From assembly GCA_014240065.1 (NCBI GenBank), contig JAAZXR010000037.1:1-41194 (forward strand): DNA of 41,194 nucleotides, written 5' to 3'. The notes beneath the pieces are model-generated. The model was not told the origin of the DNA and did not search any database. It saw nothing but the letters and a program-made list of their open reading frames with translations. The stretch is from Myxococcales bacterium (lineage in GTDB: Bacteria; Myxococcota_A; Polyangia; Nannocystales; Nannocystaceae). The position numbers and the translations under genes were made by a program. This document shows positions 930-9,822 of this stretch, piece after piece (the stretch's first letter is position 1; every line of letters starts with the position of its first letter).

Positions 930-1769
930 CTACGTGACTGAGCTCAGGTAGCGCGCGTAAAAATAGACGACGGGCGCGACGAACAACAGCCCGTCGATGC
1001 GATCGAGCATGCCGCCGTGACCAGGGAGCAAGCGCCCGGAGTCTTTGACGCCAAAGGTCCGCTTGACCAGCGACTCCACGAGATCTCCGATCTGCCCGCA
1101 GGCGCTACCTAACGCCCCTAAGATCAGCCCCTCGTGAAGGGGAATGGCCGGCAACATCCACGACGCCCCTACCCCGCCCGCCGCGATCATGCCCCCTGCG
1201 ATGCCGCCCAGGGCGCCCGCGACGGTCTTGTTGGGACTCACCGCGGCGTAGAGCGGGCGCCGTCCAAACGCACGCCCCGCGAAGTAGGCGAGGGTGTCAG
1301 ACCCGAAGGCGATCAAGAGCGCGAGCAGCAGCCATCGCGGGCCGTCCGCCGAGAACTCGGACTTGAGCAGCGGCCACACCACGGCCAGCACCGGCACGTA
1401 GACCATGGCCCCCCAGGTCACCGCGAGGCGCCGACCGGCGGTCTCGATGTCCCCGGGACGAAGCAGCACCGCCAGGCCGATGATCACCGCGAAGGCCGCC
1501 ATCAGCGGGGGCATCACCGCCGGCAAGCCCCACATCACCGCGCCCACCACCAAGCCCCCAGCGAACAGCGCGCTCACAATTCGAAGGCCGCGAAGCGGCG
1601 CCTCCGGGGTGGCCGGTAGCGACATCCTCAAGAACTCGTCTTGCGCCGCCGCGGTCGCGAAGACACCAATTGCGAGAATGCTCCAGACGGTCGGGTCCGC
1701 GAACAACGCCGCCAACAACAACGGGATGAGCACCAACGCGGTCAAGAAGCGAACGGCAAGGTTATTCAT
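930..1769 (-). CDS. cdsA: phosphatidate cytidylyltransferase
   Basis: Makes CDP-diacylglycerol from phosphatidic acid and CTP in the inner membrane, the branch point of phospholipid synthesis. The 279-residue protein is almost entirely hydrophobic, with about eight membrane segments, the normal size for the family. The family signature is complete at about residues 233-259: [13 protein letters not shown], then [11 protein letters not shown], with its conserved K-D and H-G-G-x-x-D-R residues. The ATG at 1769 overlaps the end of uppS by 8 bases, so the two are probably translated together. In many bacteria cdsA is followed by dxr and a site-2 protease gene; here it ends the operon and faces the small membrane gene. 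Confidence 0.96.
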
Positions 1770-2622
1770 GAGCGTGCGAAGCCCTGCTCCCCGACTCCGC
1801 CTCCGGGTCTTGCAGACTCAACGGCTCCCCGCGTTCTTCCACGACCGCCCCTTGCTGCTCCTCCTCCGCGACCTGCGTGGAGGTCTTGCCAAATCGCCGC
1901 TCTCGCGCCGCGTAGTCGACGATCGCCTCGATCAATTCCTCTCGCCCAAAATCTGGCCACATCTTCTCGGTGAAGTAGAGCTCCGCGTAGGCGATCTCCC
2001 ACAAAAAGAAATTCGAGACGCGCCGCTCGCCCGAGGTTCGAATCAGTAAGTCCATCGGGGGCATGTTGGCGGACGGGAGGCAGCCGCCAAATCTGTCCTC
2101 ATCCACGTCGTCGAGCCGCAGCCTCCCCTCGGTCACCTCGCGGCAGATCGCCTTGGTCGCCTCGAGGATCGTCTCGCGACCGCCATAGCTCAGCGCGAGG
2201 CACAGGTTCATCCCGCGATTGCGCGAAGACGCAGAGATGAGCTCGGTGAGGGGCAGCCGCACGAACAGGGGCAGCCGCCCCACGTCGCCCACCGTGGTGA
2301 GTCGAATGCCGTTGTCGAGGATCTCCCGGCGCTCTTCGAACAGATATCGCCGCAGCAGCTGCATGAGGTGAAACACCTCCGCTGGCGGTCGATCCCAGTT
2401 TTGCGAGGAGAAAGCGAACAGGGTGAGCGCCTCAAGCCCGAGCCGACGAGACGCCCGAACCACCCGCCGCACGGCGTCCGCGCCGTGGCTGTGCCCCACG
2501 GTGCGATCCTCTCCCCGCGTGGAGGCCCAGCGACCATTACCATCCATGATCACCCCGACGTGCCGGGGCATCCTCTCGGCCGGAATGTCGGCCAGAACCT
2601 GTTCAACTGCATCCGTGCTCAC
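1762..2622 (-). CDS. uppS: undecaprenyl diphosphate synthase
   Basis: Cis-prenyltransferase that elongates farnesyl diphosphate with isopentenyl diphosphate to the C55 carrier used for peptidoglycan and O-antigen. Family motifs appear in order: MDGNGRWA at residues 26-33 with the catalytic Asp27, [21 protein letters not shown], and near the end [15 protein letters not shown] followed by [16 protein letters not shown] chose the GTG at 2622 (reading [10 protein letters not shown]) because it sits just upstream of the first motif. The frame stays open to 3063, but that extension is Arg-rich and unlike any family member. The 286 residues exceed the usual 240-260 because of an acidic Gln/Glu/Ser C-terminal tail of about 35 residues. 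First gene of the uppS-cdsA operon. Confidence 0.95.
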
Positions 2623-3144
2623 GGGAGTTGTGCCTGATACCACGGCCACAACAGGGCCGTCCAACCTCAGCGAACGGTCGCAGGGGGCCTTCAGGCGCCA
2701 TCGCCAGCGCGACGATCTCCACGGCGTCCGGCGAACGCCGCCGCCGGCCGCCCGGGTCCGCGAGGGACGCGCTCGGGCGAGCCCGCAGGCGCTGCGTACT
2801 CGACGGGCCGCCCCCTGCCGGCGGTTTGCGCTCGCCCTCTCGGCCACTCGCGCGGCAACCCCGCGCCGATCCCGCGGATCTGCAGCGCCCGCGGGTTGAG
2901 AATTGGCGCCTCCGACCCACATTCTTGGGGCGGGCCGGAGGCTCCTCCCACCGCATGCAGCGAAGATCACGAATCTGATGCATGCGCGAGCCCCCAGATC
3001 ACATATTCTGACTCTGGGAATCGACCCACCTCGCCCGGCGTTCTTGTGACGCCACCTCCCCACGCCGCACGCGACTTCACCGACGACTCCACCCTCAACC
3101 GACGACGACCGAGACGAACGCGAACAGGTTCAAGAAACGAAACC
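2623..3144. other. 522-base gap between divergent uppS and pspA
   Basis: No convincing gene. All open frames here are Arg/Pro-rich and look like GC-rich non-coding DNA. It must carry the divergent promoters of uppS and pspA. I see no clear -35/-10 pair. I also see no TGGCAC-N5-TTGC element of the kind that drives pspA from sigma-54 in enterobacteria. Confidence 0.6.
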
Positions 3145-4077
3145 ATGGGACTTTTCTCCAGACTAGGGACGCTCATTCGTTCCAACATGAACGAGCTGAT
3201 CAACCGGGCCGAGGACCCGGAGAAAATGCTCAACCAAGTCCTCGTGGACATGAAGACCCAGCTGGTCGAGGCGCGCAAGCAGGTCGCCATCGCGATCGCC
3301 GACGAGAAGCGAATCAAGCGACAGCTCGACCAAGAAACGACCAAAGCAGCCGACTGGGAGAAAAAGGCGATGCTCGCCGTCAAGACCGGCGATGACGAGC
3401 TCGCCCGCGCGGCGCTCAAACGAAAATCAGACCACGAGACCATCGCCGAGCAACTCAGCCAACAGTGGGAGCTTCAAAAGACCTCGGTCGAGCAGCTCAA
3501 AGAGGCCTTGCGCGGCCTCGAACTCAAGATCGAGGAGGCCAAGCGCAAGAGGAACCTGCTGGTCTCGCGTCAAAAACGCGCGGAGGCCCAACAGACGATC
3601 AACGACACCCTGGCAAATATCCACGGCACGAGCGCCTTCGACACCTTCGAGCGCATGGCCGACAGGGTGACGCAGCTTGAAGCGGAAGCCGAGGCCACCG
3701 CGGAGCTCTCTGAGGCGCTGCCCGAGGCCTCTCTCGACGCGCAGTTCAAGGCGCTTGAGGCCAGCTCCATGGACGACCAGCTCGACGCGCTGAAACAAAA
3801 AATGGCCCTCGGCCCCGGCGGAGCAGCGGCCCCAAAGGCGCTGCAACAAGACGACGACGCCGGCCCCCCCACAGGCGACCAGAGCGGCTCCGACTCGCCC
3901 CCCGGCAACTCCTCGACGCAGGATCCCGCCGCGGACCCCACCAGCGCGTCACCTGAGCATGAGACACCCGCGGGCGAGCCTGCACCGAGCGGCGCCACGA
4001 GCGACGAGATCGACGCGCAGCTTGAGGCGCTCAAGCGTTCACTCGCCGATGACGAGGGCGAACCGTCGCCGAGCTAG
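3145..4077 (+). CDS. pspA: PspA/IM30 family membrane-stress protein
   Basis: Peripheral inner-membrane protein of the PspA/Vipp1 (ESCRT-III-like) family, which protects and reshapes stressed membranes. The start MGLFSRLGTLIRSNMNELIN is the classic family N-terminus with its amphipathic helix, followed by NRAEDPEKML. Long Lys/Glu/Gln-rich coiled-coil helices run to about residue 220, as expected. The ATG at 3145 is chosen for this N-terminus; the frame opens earlier (2896) but without family resemblance. The last 85 or so of 310 residues form a Ser/Pro/Asp-rich low-complexity tail ending in an acidic helix, longer than usual. No pspB, pspC or pspF gene is adjacent. It converges on the HDOD gene and the two stop codons overlap. 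Confidence 0.93.
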   Translation: MGLFSRLGTLIRSNMNELINRAEDPEKMLNQVLVDMKTQLVEARKQVAIAIADEKRIKRQLDQETTKAADWEKKAMLAVKTGDDELARAALKRKSDHETIAEQLSQQWELQKTSVEQLKEALRGLELKIEEAKRKRNLLVSRQKRAEAQQTINDTLANIHGTSAFDTFERMADRVTQLEAEAEATAELSEALPEASLDAQFKALEASSMDDQLDALKQKMALGPGGAAAPKALQQDDDAGPPTGDQSGSDSPPGNSSTQDPAADPTSASPEHETPAGEPAPSGATSDEIDAQLEALKRSLADDEGEPSPS

Positions 4078-5081
4078 GGCTTGAGGCGCTCGCGGATGGA
4101 CTCGGCGAACGAGATCGCAGAATTGATCGCCTCCTCATCGAGGCCGAGCTGATAAAACATCCCCATCTCTGATCCGTCGAGGCGATTCATCCCGCGGGTT
4201 TCTCCGAGACCCACGTGCTCCGCCAACCGCTCAGAGACGGCCGCCACGTGACCGAGCTGCGAGTATCCGTCCCGCGAGCCACCGGACTCGAAGCGGTGGT
4301 GGCGACGCGCGACCTCCTGGACCGAGGCGGGCAGGTCCCAGCGCTCACACACCAACTTCCCGATGTGGGTGTGGATTTGCTCCGCGACGAAATCAAAGTC
4401 GGAGGGCTCGTATCCCTGGGGAGCGTCCTTGTCGAGCACCTGGCGCAAGACCACAGTGCCGATGTCGTGGAGGAGCCCGGACAAGAAGGCGTAGTCCTTG
4501 CTCAGCCCGAGGTGCCCGCTCATATGACGCATGATGTACGCGACCGCGATCCCGTGGAGACGATGTTGCCGCAAGAACACGGCCGCGTCTCCGCGGAAGA
4601 TGTGGGCCTCCGCCACGCTCTGGTAGAGGATGTCGCGCACCAGCCCGACACCGAGCAACATGATGCCGCTGTCGAGGTTGGTGATGCGTTTGGCGGGCGC
4701 GTACAACGGGCTATTCGAGATCGACAACACCCTCGCTGTGAGGACCGCGTCCGGCTTCATCACCTTCGAGAGATCGCGAATTGACACATCGGGATCGTTC
4801 GCCACTTCCATGGCACGTTGGGCGATCCCCGGGAGCATGGGAATCTTGTGATCGCGCGCGTTCTCAATCCGCTGGACGATGTACCCGGCGAGTTTCTTGA
4901 TGCGCGAAGCCTCGGGGACCACCCCCTCCACCTCATGCACGAGCGTCACGCCGGCGCGGTCGCCCGGGTCGCTGTCGCCCGGGTCGCTGCTGTCCGATCT
5001 TGCCTTGAAAAAACCCACGTCTTCAAACTTTACATCGGCCACATCATGCGAGCGATTAAGCGACCGAAGGGACCTCAACAC
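4074..5081 (-). CDS. HDOD-domain signalling protein
   Basis: A 335-residue protein with one HDOD domain (about 78-290), the HD-related output domain of bacterial signalling, usually non-catalytic. Visible landmarks are KIPMLPGIAQRAMEVANDP, VLSISNSPLYA, GLLHDIG (HD at 205-206) and the late ARRHH at about 284. The first 75 residues are a variable region with an Asp-Pro-Gly-Asp repeat and no receiver domain. A GTG at 5081 gives a 26-base overlap with the GH3-like gene. A GTG at 5042 would avoid the overlap, so the start is uncertain. Last gene of the four-gene operon; its partner is probably encoded in the same operon (inference). Confidence 0.88.
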   Translation of the reverse strand: MLRSLRSLNRSHDVADVKFEDVGFFKARSDSSDPGDSDPGDRAGVTLVHEVEGVVPEASRIKKLAGYIVQRIENARDHKIPMLPGIAQRAMEVANDPDVSIRDLSKVMKPDAVLTARVLSISNSPLYAPAKRITNLDSGIMLLGVGLVRDILYQSVAEAHIFRGDAAVFLRQHRLHGIAVAYIMRHMSGHLGLSKDYAFLSGLLHDIGTVVLRQVLDKDAPQGYEPSDFDFVAEQIHTHIGKLVCERWDLPASVQEVARRHHRFESGGSRDGYSQLGHVAAVSERLAEHVGLGETRGMNRLDGSEMGMFYQLGLDEEAINSAISFAESIRERLKP

Positions 5082-6486
5082 GAATCACCGCGCCCCGCAC
5101 CGGCCCGTCGAGGGCCAGTTCCCGCTCGATTTGTTCAGCTTGCGTGGTCCCAGACGGGCAGATCCGCACCTCCGGTGGGTGAAGAACTCCGTTGTCGCGC
5201 AAATGAGCGTAGGGGGCGCTGCGACGGCGCAGATCGCGGTCAATTCGAGATGAGAGTTCCCGGGGAAGTCGGGCCGGCGGCACGCCTTGAACTTCCATAC
5301 GCACGGTCACCGTGTCAGCCCGTCGTCCCGCCCGCGGCCCTCTCGTCGGGCGACCGAGCTCCGTGTCGTCGAAGATCTCGCCCGCTCCCACTCGCTGCGC
5401 CGATCGCTGCTCAGCCACCTTTGATTTTTCCGCGCGCCGTACCGACACCCACGCGCCGACGAGCGCCGGATCTTCTGGTTGGAATGCCTGGCGAACCGCC
5501 GCTGTAAGCCGCGCCCCTGCGAGGGTGGTGCCCTCGACCCGCAGGTCCGTTGGAGGCGGGAGCCTGCGCACGAAGCGGGGCCGCAACGCCGCGTCTGCGC
5601 GCGAGGGAGGATCGAATCCGATCACGCGAATATGAGCGCCGCTGCGTCTCCGCAGCATGCCACTCGGGGCGCTCAAGACGACCTCGTAGCGGGCCCCGAG
5701 CACGGCGTTCTCCGGCAGGACCGTCGCCTCTCCTGGCTGCGATCTCCCGTCCTTGTCGGGATCCGTCCACGGGAGAAACTCCACGATCAACTCACGTCCA
5801 GACAGGCTCATCGCGGAGCGCGGTGCGCGAAGCGAGGGCGTCGCCACGCGGCCGGCCCGCTCAATCCATCCGAGGTTGAGCACCGGGGCCCGGGTCCTCA
5901 ACCGCGTCTCAAGATCGTGCTCGGCGAGGATGACTCGCAACGAAGGGACGAGCCGCTCTAGCTGACATCGGCCGAGACGCTCGAGGCTCCGACACAACGC
6001 GAGCGACGAGACGACCAAGGTGTCGGGGGCGAGCGTGACGAGCGCCTGCCGCATCCCCTCAAGATCATGCAGCCCCTCGGGCCCGACAAATTCAGGCGCA
6101 CGAGCGCCGAGCTGGGCGAGGTCCTCTCGGCGAAGGCGAGCGGCCCGCCGGCCCTGCGTCTCGCGCCGCAGGCTCAAGACCTTACGGGGCGGCCAATGCT
6201 CGGTCTGAGACGACCACACCTGCCACAGTCGCGCGTGATCCAACGAGCCGTGCATGTCACCGCTCATCGACCGCTCATCTTCGCCAAAGCCCAACTCCGG
6301 CTCCACCTCGCGCGCGTGACTTCGGCGATCGAATAGCGGGACCGTCGCGCGAAAATCGGCCACCCCGCGGACCCGGTGCAGCCCGAACTCTCGACCCATC
6401 TTCGAATTTCCGAGGCGGCGAACCAGGGCCTCGAGTGTCTGTTCCCGACGCCGATCCTCCACCGACGGTTCAACCACCGTCGGCAC
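5056..6486 (-). CDS. GH3-like (acyl-adenylating fold) protein, probably degenerate
   Basis: A 476-residue protein resembling the GH3 family (ANL superfamily, acyl-acid amido synthetases). The N-terminus LVRRLGNSKMGREFGL followed by DFRATVPLFDRRSH matches the GH3 opening. ARYEVVLSAPSGMLRRRSG at about 275-293, followed by HIRVIGF, matches the usual region before the C-terminal domain. Two key sites are missing. The SGTTG-type ATP loop expected near residue 95 is replaced by an unrelated stretch, and the Asp of the later Y-R-x-G-D motif is replaced in SGAH. It may therefore bind rather than activate an acid, or be a pseudoenzyme. The GTG at 6486 overlaps the MerR-TPR gene by 17 bases. Confidence 0.6.
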   Translation of the reverse strand: MPTVVEPSVEDRRREQTLEALVRRLGNSKMGREFGLHRVRGVADFRATVPLFDRRSHAREVEPELGFGEDERSMSGDMHGSLDHARLWQVWSSQTEHWPPRKVLSLRRETQGRRAARLRREDLAQLGARAPEFVGPEGLHDLEGMRQALVTLAPDTLVVSSLALCRSLERLGRCQLERLVPSLRVILAEHDLETRLRTRAPVLNLGWIERAGRVATPSLRAPRSAMSLSGRELIVEFLPWTDPDKDGRSQPGEATVLPENAVLGARYEVVLSAPSGMLRRRSGAHIRVIGFDPPSRADAALRPRFVRRLPPPTDLRVEGTTLAGARLTAAVRQAFQPEDPALVGAWVSVRRAEKSKVAEQRSAQRVGAGEIFDDTELGRPTRGPRAGRRADTVTVRMEVQGVPPARLPRELSSRIDRDLRRRSAPYAHLRDNGVLHPPEVRICPSGTTQAEQIERELALDGPVRGAVIRVEVPSVA

Positions 6487-7486
6487 CGAGCGACAATTCC
6501 GTGAGCACGGCCTGAGCCGCGTGTGCTTGCGCCTCCAACTCCGGGTCGCGCTGGTCCGCCGGCAGGCGCGTGACCCCCTCGCAAAAACGCCGTAGGTGGG
6601 CCACGGCTTGCGATTTTCCGCCGACCTCCAAGAGCGCCCGGGCGAGCCCGTAGTGCGCCTCTAAGAGCTCTGGTGCGGAGGCGAGGACCCGCCGAAAGCC
6701 GGCGATGGAGAGCTCAAAGTCCCCATCTCGCAGCGCGAGCTCGGACAGATTGAGCTGCGCTTCAGGCTGGTCTGGATCGATCTTCAGCGCTTCATCAAAG
6801 GCGTCGCGAGCCTCCTCAAGATCGCCGTGCTCCGCGAGGAGTCCGCCAAGGTTGGTCCACGCCGCCGCGAACTCCGGGTCGACTTCGAGCGCCTCCCGAT
6901 ACAGCGCCTCGACCTCGTCGAACGCTGCGACCGGCCGGCGCTCTGCCCGACACTGCGCGTCGCGCTCCCGCGCTCTTAAGAAAATTGCTTGGGCCGAGAA
7001 CTCTGCATCTCGTGGGCTGCTTGACCGGCGCGGAAGCTCGAGCACCTGCGCCGCCTCGGTCCGCAAGGTCCCCACGCTAAAGTCCAACACGAGCTGCCCA
7101 GTGTCGGCCTCAAATGCGCCGGCCTCCTCCTCCACGAGCACGCGCGCGTGGTCGCAGCGGATGCGCAGCGCCGCGAGCGGCTCTTCGATATCGGGGAGCC
7201 GGCGGCGCAGCGCGTCGAGGCTGCGACGCACCCGCTGCAGCGGGACACCGGCGTCGAGCAGGCCCTTCGCCACCTTAATCGAGATGAGATCCGTGAAGCG
7301 ATATCCACCACGCTTGCCCGTCCCCGTCGGTCGTATGAACCCAGACTGCGACCAATAGCGCAGGCGACTGACCGGCACCCCGAAGAGTCTCGACACCTCG
7401 CTCGCGCGGTAGCACTGCTCCCCGAGCGCGTCGGGCTGAAGCGGCATCGAAGACTTGCGAGGGGTTGCGGGCATGGCCGGAATCAA
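6470..7486 (-). CDS. MerR-type regulator fused to TPR repeats
   Basis: A 338-residue transcription factor. Residues 24-90 form a MerR winged helix (YRASEVSRLFGVPVSRLRYW, then GYRFTDLISIKVAKGLLDAG). A linker follows, then three to four TPR repeats at about 185-300 (for example AAWTNLGGLLAEHGDLEEA). The TPR part probably binds another protein, here perhaps the neighbouring gene products (inference). The TTG at 7486 is preferred over an ATG at 7474. It has a GAGGTG ribosome site 4 bases upstream, and it overlaps the previous stop as TTGA, a common coupling arrangement. Second gene of the operon. Confidence 0.87.
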   Translation of the reverse strand: MIPAMPATPRKSSMPLQPDALGEQCYRASEVSRLFGVPVSRLRYWSQSGFIRPTGTGKRGGYRFTDLISIKVAKGLLDAGVPLQRVRRSLDALRRRLPDIEEPLAALRIRCDHARVLVEEEAGAFEADTGQLVLDFSVGTLRTEAAQVLELPRRSSSPRDAEFSAQAIFLRARERDAQCRAERRPVAAFDEVEALYREALEVDPEFAAAWTNLGGLLAEHGDLEEARDAFDEALKIDPDQPEAQLNLSELALRDGDFELSIAGFRRVLASAPELLEAHYGLARALLEVGGKSQAVAHLRRFCEGVTRLPADQRDPELEAQAHAAQAVLTELSLGADGG

Positions 7487-7893
7487 CGAGCACCTCGTTT
7501 GCGGCGCTCGGGTTGTTCGAGCAATAACACGAGGTCACCATCGATGAGCAGTCGGCTGTCCTCAAACCTCAAGTGAACGTCCATCTCCGCGCGGCAGTGC
7601 CGAGCGCGGGCGTCGCCTCTGCGTTCGAACTCCGCGCGCCCGACCGCGATGAGCCGCGCCCGCACGCGAGGGTCATCGCGGAGAAGATCTACCAGCTTGG
7701 CGGTGGTGGCTTCGTCGGGATGCTCGCGAAACAGCCCGGCCGTGCGCTCGAGGCAGATCGTCGTCATCACCGACGCGAAGCCCTTCCCCTCGCGGTCCAC
7801 GGCGCCCTCCACCACGTGATCCGCCTCCCCAAACAACAGCTTCAAATTGCCGTTGGGGATGAACTCCCGGACTTCCCGTCGGATGAGTGACAT
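7483..7893 (-). CDS. uncharacterised 136-residue protein, first gene of the MerR/GH3/HDOD operon
   Basis: I do not recognise the family. The ATG at 7893 gives a protein opening MSLIRREVREFIPNGNLKLL, mixed alpha/beta in character, with no signal peptide or membrane segment. It has regular charged helices in the middle and a C-terminal RFEDSRLLIDGDLVLLLEQ that looks like two beta strands. An upstream GTG (7989) would add 32 unremarkable residues. Its stop overlaps the TTG of the MerR-TPR gene, so it is probably co-translated and related in function. Confidence 0.75.
   Translation of the reverse strand: MSLIRREVREFIPNGNLKLLFGEADHVVEGAVDREGKGFASVMTTICLERTAGLFREHPDEATTAKLVDLLRDDPRVRARLIAVGRAEFERRGDARARHCRAEMDVHLRFEDSRLLIDGDLVLLLEQPERRKRGAR
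7491..7496 (-). promoter_or_regulatory. ribosome site deciding the TTG start of the MerR-TPR gene
   Basis: On the minus strand this reads GAGGTG and stands 4 bases before the TTG at 7486. The alternative ATG at 7474 would be 16 bases away, too far. Confidence 0.55.
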
Positions 7894-8043
7894 GCGTGAT
7901 ACACGCGACCAGCGCGCGGGCTCAGGTAGCGCGGAACGCGCTAACCCGTGGTTTTGTTCGTGTGCGTGTGTGTCGCTTAAAGTAGGCACAGGTAGGTGTA
8001 AGTATGACGGAAGCAGGCGAGCCCCTCAACTTTCGCACCGGTT

Positions 8044-9018
8044 ATGCTGCCCGACGTGACCGCCCGCGCGTTGTTCGTCCTCGATCCCCTGGAGCGTCTT
8101 TGCCCGCGCGAAGACAGCACCTACGTCATGATGCTCGAGGCCCAGCGGCGGGGACACGAGGTGCACGCGACGATGGTGGGTGACCTCGCGCTCGACGAGG
8201 AGGTCGCGGTCGCGCACACGCGATCCGTGGCGAAGATCTCCGCGGGTGATCGACCGACGTTCCAAGGCTCTCCGGAGCGGGTGGCGCTCCGTGAATTCGA
8301 CGTGGTCTTCCAGCGCAAAGACCCCCCGTTTGATTCCAACTACCTCATCAGCACCTGGATTCTCGAGCGCGCCCGAGGTGAGACGCTGCTGATCAACGAT
8401 CCCGCGGGCCTGCGCGAGCTCAACGAGAAACTGGCGATCCTCGCGTTCCCGCACCTCACGCCCAAGACCAGGTTGCTGCGGCGCCGCGAAGACCTCTACG
8501 TCGCCCTCGACGATTTCGGCGGCGAGATGATCGTCAAGCCCGTGTTCGGCTTTGGCGGACGCGCCATCTTGAAGGTCCGGCGCGACGATCCCAACTTAAA
8601 CGCGTTGCTCGAGCTCGCCACCCAAGAGCACACCGAGTGGACCGTCGCCCAAGAGTTCCTCCCCGCCGCGATGACCGGCGACAAGCGCGTCCTCCTCGTC
8701 GACGGCGAACCCGTAGGCGCGGTCTTGAGGGTCCCGGCCAAAGGCGAGGGCCGCAGCAACTTCCACGTCGGCGGGACCGCGGCCCCGACCGCTCTCAGCC
8801 CTCGTGAACGAGCGATCTGCGAGGAGGTGGGCCCATTCTTGGCGGAGCGGGGGCAGTTCTTCGTGGGCCTCGATGTCATCGGCGACAAGCTCACCGAGCT
8901 CAACGTGACGAGCCCCACGGGCATGCAAGAGGTCAACCGCATGGGCGGACTCACCGGCCCCGACACCATGGAAGCCCGCTTCTGGGACGGCGTAGAGCGG
9001 CGACTGAAGGCTCGGTGA
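8044..9018 (+). CDS. gshB: glutathione synthetase
   Basis: ATP-grasp ligase joining glycine to gamma-glutamylcysteine in the cytoplasm. The 324 residues match the usual length of about 315. Family landmarks appear in order: an N-terminal fold with DSTYVMMLEAQRRGHEV, INDPAGLRELNEKLAIL, the nucleotide-grasp strand MIVKPVFGFGGRAILKV, and the metal and product site LTELNVTSPTGMQEVNRM. The family usually has a Cys after TSPT; here it is Gly. No gshA is in the window. It begins a plus-strand run of genes and is followed after 36 bases by an ECF-like sigma factor gene. The 150-base gap to the divergent operon upstream must hold its promoter. Confidence 0.95.
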   Translation: MLPDVTARALFVLDPLERLCPREDSTYVMMLEAQRRGHEVHATMVGDLALDEEVAVAHTRSVAKISAGDRPTFQGSPERVALREFDVVFQRKDPPFDSNYLISTWILERARGETLLINDPAGLRELNEKLAILAFPHLTPKTRLLRRREDLYVALDDFGGEMIVKPVFGFGGRAILKVRRDDPNLNALLELATQEHTEWTVAQEFLPAAMTGDKRVLLVDGEPVGAVLRVPAKGEGRSNFHVGGTAAPTALSPRERAICEEVGPFLAERGQFFVGLDVIGDKLTELNVTSPTGMQEVNRMGGLTGPDTMEARFWDGVERRLKAR

Positions 9019-9054: not shown

Positions 9055-9822
9055 ATGAACGTTCCCTTCCATGACACGCTCGTCGCGCTGCTGCCCGACC
9101 TGTACCGCTTCACTTTCTGCGTGACCGCGAAACGCGACGACGCGCTGGAGCAACTCCAAGGAATCTGCGCCCACCTCGCCGGCGAGCGGGCCCAGCTTGA
9201 GCGCGCGAGCCAACCAAACATCGCCATCTTCGGGAGCGCCGCGAGATGGCTCGAGGCGAATTTGGGGCGACGCGCCACCCTCTCGTTCGGCGACCTCGAC
9301 GCCGTGCTTCGCAGCGACATCACGCGCCCCATCGACGCCGCGATGCTCGCTCGCGACGGCATCGAACCAGACACCCACGTGCTGTTGTGGCAACTCAAGC
9401 GCACCTGCCTCACCTCGGCCCTATGCTGCCTGCCGCCCGCGGTGCGAATCAGCTTCGTGCTCACGGACATTTTGGGCTTCGCGCCGGATCGAGCCGCGTC
9501 GATGCTCGAGATCAAAGAGAGCGCCTACCGCGTGCGTCTCGCCCGCGGGCGGAAGAAAATCGAGGACTACATCACGCCCCGCTGTAGCCACGTCGATCGC
9601 CAAAACCCATGCGACTGCCCCGGCCGCCTGATGATCGCCGTGGACGGCGGATTCGTACGATCACCACCGCACACCCTCGACATCCCGCACGAGCCGCACG
9701 ACGCCCAGCCCCCTCGGCGGGATGTGCCCTCCCTGTATCGTGCGCTCCCCAACGTGGTGCTCGATCCGACGACGGCCGCCTCCTTTGAGGCGACGCTTCG
9801 CGGTGAATCGAGCGGCGACTGA
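9055..9822 (+). CDS. ECF-type sigma factor-like protein with C-terminal Cys cluster
   Basis: A 255-residue protein. The second half contains a sigma-70 region 4 helix-turn-helix (LPPAVRISFVLTDILGF, then SMLEIKESAYRVRLARGRKK). The N-terminal half looks like a weakly conserved region 2 (DLYRFTFCVTAKRDDALEQL). Directly after region 4 comes a Cys cluster, C177-S-H and then C186-D-C188 (C-x8-C-x-C), which could bind a metal. A 65-residue extension follows. Some ECF sigma factors are known to carry a similar Cys motif here. No anti-sigma gene is adjacent. Its place after gshB suggests, but does not prove, a link to thiol or metal status. Confidence 0.8.
   Translation: MNVPFHDTLVALLPDLYRFTFCVTAKRDDALEQLQGICAHLAGERAQLERASQPNIAIFGSAARWLEANLGRRATLSFGDLDAVLRSDITRPIDAAMLARDGIEPDTHVLLWQLKRTCLTSALCCLPPAVRISFVLTDILGFAPDRAASMLEIKESAYRVRLARGRKKIEDYITPRCSHVDRQNPCDCPGRLMIAVDGGFVRSPPHTLDIPHEPHDAQPPRRDVPSLYRALPNVVLDPTTAASFEATLRGESSGD

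Follow-up and report, generated by a model that had tools for sequence, protein, structure and literature searches.

A conserved P1/MerR-TPR gene pair and an associated GH3-like protein without ATP motifs in Nannocystaceae

The gene unit and its surroundings

In the window, a stretch of 41,194 nucleotides from a bacterium of the family Nannocystaceae, four genes follow one another on the minus strand, and the open reading frames confirm the order given in the original prediction. P1 (7893-7483, start ATG 7893), the first gene of the unit, encodes 136 amino acids and is followed by genes for a MerR-TPR protein (6470..7486), a GH3-like protein of 476 amino acids that we read as a pseudoenzyme (6486-5056), and an HDOD protein, presented here as an accessory gene (5081-4074). 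Overlaps of 4, 17 and 26 bases had been described between neighbouring genes. Those of 17 and 26 bases hold and recur in the sister genome L030, where the MerR-TPR gene ends at 1662, the GH3-like gene starts at 1646 and ends at 3079, and the HDOD gene starts at 3054. The 4-base overlap between P1 and MerR-TPR is doubtful, because it needs a TTG start at 7486, while the ATG of L030 matches the ATG at 7474 in the window, which is the likelier start and leaves a small gap. The fixed stoichiometry that had been read from the overlaps finds no support.

Searches of Pfam, NCBIfam, PHROGs and PDB gave no match for P1, its AlphaFold2 model has a low pLDDT (52.5), and a Foldseek search with P1 returned nothing with an E-value below 1. 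As far as sequence comparison reaches, P1 is a protein family without known relative. The start motif LIRREVRE is conserved among its own relatives, consistent with the ATG at 7893.

The second protein carries a MerR_1 domain (Pfam, E 1.1e-11) and TPR repeats (TPR_19, E 7.8e-18). Its MerR winged-helix DNA-binding domain is clearly recognised (PF13411, 45.1 bits against a cut-off of 21.6) and occupies residues 26-92, followed by a short middle region and the TPR repeats at about 189-300. With MerR-family regulators it shares the MerR_1 domain, with a conserved RLRYWSQTGFI-P region, and the presence of a dyad at the promoter; it differs from them in that TPR repeats replace the metal- or drug-binding effector domain. 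MerR-TPR proteins occur in one to three copies per genome in many Myxococcota families, mostly without a recognised P1, and no description of them in myxobacteria was found in the papers searched.

The HDOD protein has the domain of the HDOD signalling proteins (PF08668, E 4.2e-36, 124.7 bits against a cut-off of 22.9), together with an HD domain match (E 9.8e-10). It also lies just above the cut-off of the HDIG model, and a paralogue with 59% identity is found elsewhere in the genome of the window (G000:C190:9047-9853, L188).

Divergent from P1 lies gshB, for glutathione synthetase (8056..9018, plus strand), whose GTG start at 8056 was read from the sequence, as was the TATGCT hexamer at 8043-8048, 7 bp upstream of this GTG. 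The hexamer is similar in relatives, and gshB may undergo leaderless translation. Nearly all the Nannocystaceae examined have, adjacent to gshB, a gene (9055-9822, plus strand, in the window) in which only sigma-70 region 4 is recognised and which has a Cys/His-rich tail, CSHVDRQNPCDCPGR. On the other side of the unit, pspA-uppS-cdsA (930-4077 in the window) accompany P1-MerR-TPR also in another family (G036; L125 8447-10995), there with a PilZ gene in between. This shared neighbourhood hints at an old link of the pair to envelope genes.

GH3 ancestry and the loss of the ATP site

In regard to the GH3-like protein, Pfam finds the GH3 N-domain at residues 15-52 (E 0.032), GH3_M at 234-291 (E 5.6e-4) and GH3_C at 398-447 (E 3.5e-3), three matches that are collinear and in the correct order, each under the Pfam cut-off. 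A comparison of profiles by hhalign, between the GH3-like family and 24 true GH3s of the same class, gives a probability of 99.0% over 396 columns (E 2.4e-18), compared with 0.1-0.2% for reversed profiles and for the P1 and MerR-TPR profiles used as controls. Likewise, a profile of 21 GH3-like orthologues matches the plant GH3 structure 4b2g (E 7.3e-6), as well as 7dk8 and 5ech. The predicted GH3 ancestry is in this way borne out over the whole length of the protein, and the profile search that had been proposed as its check gives no indication of a non-GH3 fold. The AlphaFold2 model, built from two sequences only, reached a pLDDT of 30.5 and a pTM of 0.18.

The original prediction had also stated that the SGTTG-type ATP loop and a later Asp are lost, and both losses are confirmed. 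Motif I (SGT type, S/T-S-G-T-S/T) is present in none of 24 GH3-like proteins, whereas 15 to 21 of the 24 true GH3s from this class have it, according to how strictly the pattern is set. The Ser-Glu of motif II (Y-x-x-SE) is absent in all 21 aligned members, which have GWI-x-R-x-G or similar in those columns, and the Asp of motif III is missing in the window protein and in 20 of the 21. In the protein of the window the residues aligned to motifs I, II and III are 77-86, 204-213 and 276-288. In the alignment, motifs I and II are about 130 residues apart, compared with about 215 in the true GH3s of the same class; the spacing is some 85 residues shorter, and part of the large lobe has therefore been deleted. 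Read from these motifs, the GH3-like protein is a true GH3 relative without the ATP site, and this holds for the family as a whole.

The gene itself shows no decay and is under purifying selection. Between the window and L030, dN/dS is 0.14 for GH3-like, 0.08 for P1, 0.10 for MerR-TPR and 0.04 for HDOD. The most conserved part of the GH3-like protein is the GH3_M barrel with the hinge (mean majority fraction 0.76), and an Arg-rich stretch in GH3_M is conserved among the members.

Two known groups of enzymes serve for comparison. With the plant GH3 acyl acid amido synthetases (JAR1, GH3-1, GH3.12) the protein shares the collinear start of the N-domain, the GH3_M barrel and the C-terminal domain, but it lacks their SGT motif I, Y-x-x-SE and motif III Asp. 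The characterised bacterial GH3 OlsH (NF052613) is a lyso-ornithine lipid synthetase that has kept the ATP motifs (PMC12493201). The N-terminal 40 residues of the GH3-like protein match NF052613 (E 4e-5); however, TSGTTQG, YPCSE and the motif III GD are retained in OlsH, whose gene stands in an operon with OlsI, and the GH3-like protein has none of these. It could be argued that purifying selection and the conserved Arg-rich stretch speak for an enzyme still at work with an altered active site. Such an interpretation has very little probability, as all three nucleotide-binding motifs are altered in essentially all members and, when two conserved motif serines of OlsH were replaced by alanine, one of the variants lost all activity (PMC12493201). 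The protein is probably a former enzyme that now has a regulatory or scaffolding function. In the literature searched, no paper was found on GH3 relatives of this pseudoenzyme kind.

Distribution and gene order

Of 29 Nannocystaceae genomes, 27 have a GH3-like gene, among them all 19 of good quality, and full-length matches are confined to this family among 144 genomes of the class, Nannocystaceae included. Outside the family the matches are weak and cover little length, which is what ordinary GH3s would be expected to give; true GH3s themselves are patchy (20 of 78 genomes). The close packing of GH3-like with the MerR-TPR gene noticed in the window is a wider feature, found in 9 of 12 genera, and the order P1-MerR-TPR-GH3-like beside gshB is general in Nannocystaceae. 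In a FastTree phylogeny based on MerR-TPR, GshB and the sigma-like protein encoded beside gshB, in which some supports are low, the most basal genus, g4, has the GH3-like gene, which implies its presence in the ancestor of the family and its loss in G003 and G018. These two genomes, both incomplete, retain P1-MerR-TPR and lack GH3-like; in each of them a single contig carries the flanking genes, and nothing GH3-like stands between these.

Outside the family, P1 adjoins MerR-TPR without GH3-like in other Polyangia (G036, G044, G071, G144, G283 and G325), and once further out (G200), likewise without GH3-like. In L142 a 135-aa ORF precedes MerR-TPR, but a test of whether it is a diverged P1 was negative. 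P1 and MerR-TPR form the stable core, to which GH3-like and HDOD have been added.

The HDOD gene occurs at the locus in 2 of 12 genera, namely g1 (window and L030) and g3, where the protein of G003 is 42% identical and the locus has no GH3-like gene. The four-gene order itself was found only in g1, the genus of the window, in two genomes (the window and L030), and a four-part module would therefore be specific to this genus. This bears on the proposal that the four genes form a ligand-to-transcription module, with the GH3-like protein as the sensor of a small acid and with MerR-TPR and HDOD passing its signal on. The way in which the genes are ordered and overlap in the genus of the window agrees with such a module, as does the GH3 ancestry; on the other hand, HDOD is linked in so few genera, GH3-like is missing from two genomes and unlinked in genus g11, and the GH3 large lobe, which holds the acyl-acid and nucleotide sites, is partly deleted. 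We consider the module very unlikely, and neither it nor the small-acid sensor is supported by the comparison. No description of the arrangement was found in the papers searched, as the proposal had supposed.

Alternatively, the GH3-like protein may act independently, in a non-catalytic or structural capacity and with partners elsewhere, its gene being no more than a neighbour of the regulator pair. In genus g11 its gene is located elsewhere in the genome, unlinked from P1-MerR-TPR, and the dyad of the P1 promoter discussed below was sought before these unlinked genes and is not present there. In genus g10 (G020) a 430-aa ORF of no recognised family (L039 5720-7012, no Pfam match) separates MerR-TPR from GH3-like. 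The two parts are separable, because the pair persists in G003 and G018 and GH3-like stands unlinked in g11, and for the same reason an independent role is nearly as likely as the interpretation we favour below. Against it speaks that 9 of 12 genera, the most basal one among them, have the gene packed closely behind that of MerR-TPR. The genes downstream of GH3-like vary by genus (kinase, K+ transporter, sigma factor, TetR) and therefore give no functional lead.

The P1/gshB promoter region and a proposed mechanism

The region between P1 and gshB holds conserved promoter-like hexamers directed toward P1, of the form TTGRNN-N16-18-CATACT. In the window these are the -35 TTGAGG (8024..8029, minus strand) and the -10 CATACT (8001..8006, minus strand), the latter conserved in many relatives, with a 17-bp spacer between them. 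Directly behind the -10, many genomes have a 19-bp dyad, TGTAG-N9-CTACA (in fuller form TGTAGKCAC-N4-CCTACA). The window has its own degenerate copy, AGTAGGCACAGGTAGGTGT, at 7981-7999 (no strand assigned), just downstream of the P1 -10, which we regard as a candidate operator. This organization differs from that of MerR-type promoters in two respects: the dyad lies behind the -10 and not between -35 and -10, and the spacer is mostly 16-18 bp, compared with their long spacer of 19 bp.

The exact pattern TGTAGKCANNNNNCCTACA has 7 matches in 29 genomes, 6 of which are the P1/gshB promoter, while a backward control pattern has 3 matches in the same genomes. The seventh, which is the only exact copy in the genome of the window (G000:C159:42499-42517; L205 6500-6518), was rejected as a promoter site, as it lies between convergent gene ends, where it may be a stem-loop. 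A weight matrix was built on Nannocystaceae sites that had been picked out visually in these very promoters, so that the tests independent of this choice are only those on outgroup loci, on whole genomes and on MerR-TPR genes without P1. Applied to 7 outgroup loci, the matrix places the 150 bp upstream of P1 among the best windows of the locus in 6 of them (fractions 0.008-0.031), with a combined p of about 1e-6 if promoters and coding DNA are taken as alike in composition. The dyad was not convincingly seen before 10 MerR-TPR genes without recognised P1; at one of these loci, L131, there may be a diverged P1 (14 bits). Such a pattern suggests that the P1/MerR-TPR pair controls its own promoter, and the position of the dyad, where a bound protein would hinder initiation, would suit negative autoregulation. 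Against this reading stand genus g6 and L136, in which no dyad was found, and the degenerate state of the window's own copy.

Alternatively, the dyad and MerR-TPR could chiefly control the divergent gshB, in a thiol or redox context, and regulate the P1 operon only secondarily. The gshB gene is indeed divergent from P1 in nearly all Nannocystaceae with readable flanks, also in those without GH3-like. Yet the outgroup loci have P1-MerR-TPR and the dyad with no gshB found there, and the dyad overlaps the start region of P1 and, in the window, ends about 44 bp before the TATGCT of gshB, all of which makes primary control of gshB quite unlikely.

The interpretation we favour, with a probability of about 40%, is that of an autoregulated P1/MerR-TPR pair with a GH3 pseudoenzyme as accessory. 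P1 and MerR-TPR would form a regulator pair of long standing that acts on its own transcription. The TGTAG-N9-CTACA dyad just downstream of the promoter -10 would be bound by MerR-TPR, perhaps together with P1; as the sole recognised DNA-binding protein of the unit, MerR-TPR is the natural candidate. In Nannocystaceae, a GH3 amide synthetase that is now without its nucleotide site and without part of the large lobe would have come to lie behind the pair, where it would be made from the same message. It would no longer catalyse acyl-adenylate formation. Its GH3_M barrel with the hinge and the C-terminal domain would most probably act as a binding partner for the proteins of the pair, and contact with the TPR domain is plausible. 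HDOD would be a later, optional addition, in line with its linkage in two genera only.

A further step, which we regard as rather unlikely, would be that the former synthetase has turned into an ATP-free co-regulator dedicated to MerR-TPR/P1, which would set the activity of the pair by binding either the TPR domain or an acyl ligand. If true, a GH3 pseudoenzyme would act as a transcription signal. A lipid-making function of a bacterial GH3, that of OlsH in ornithine lipid synthesis, was assigned only recently, and the literature searched contains no description of a family-wide GH3 relative that is under selection, has no nucleotide site and is kept behind a MerR-type regulator. For the P1/MerR-TPR pair, the defined promoter and dyad make its regulation directly testable.
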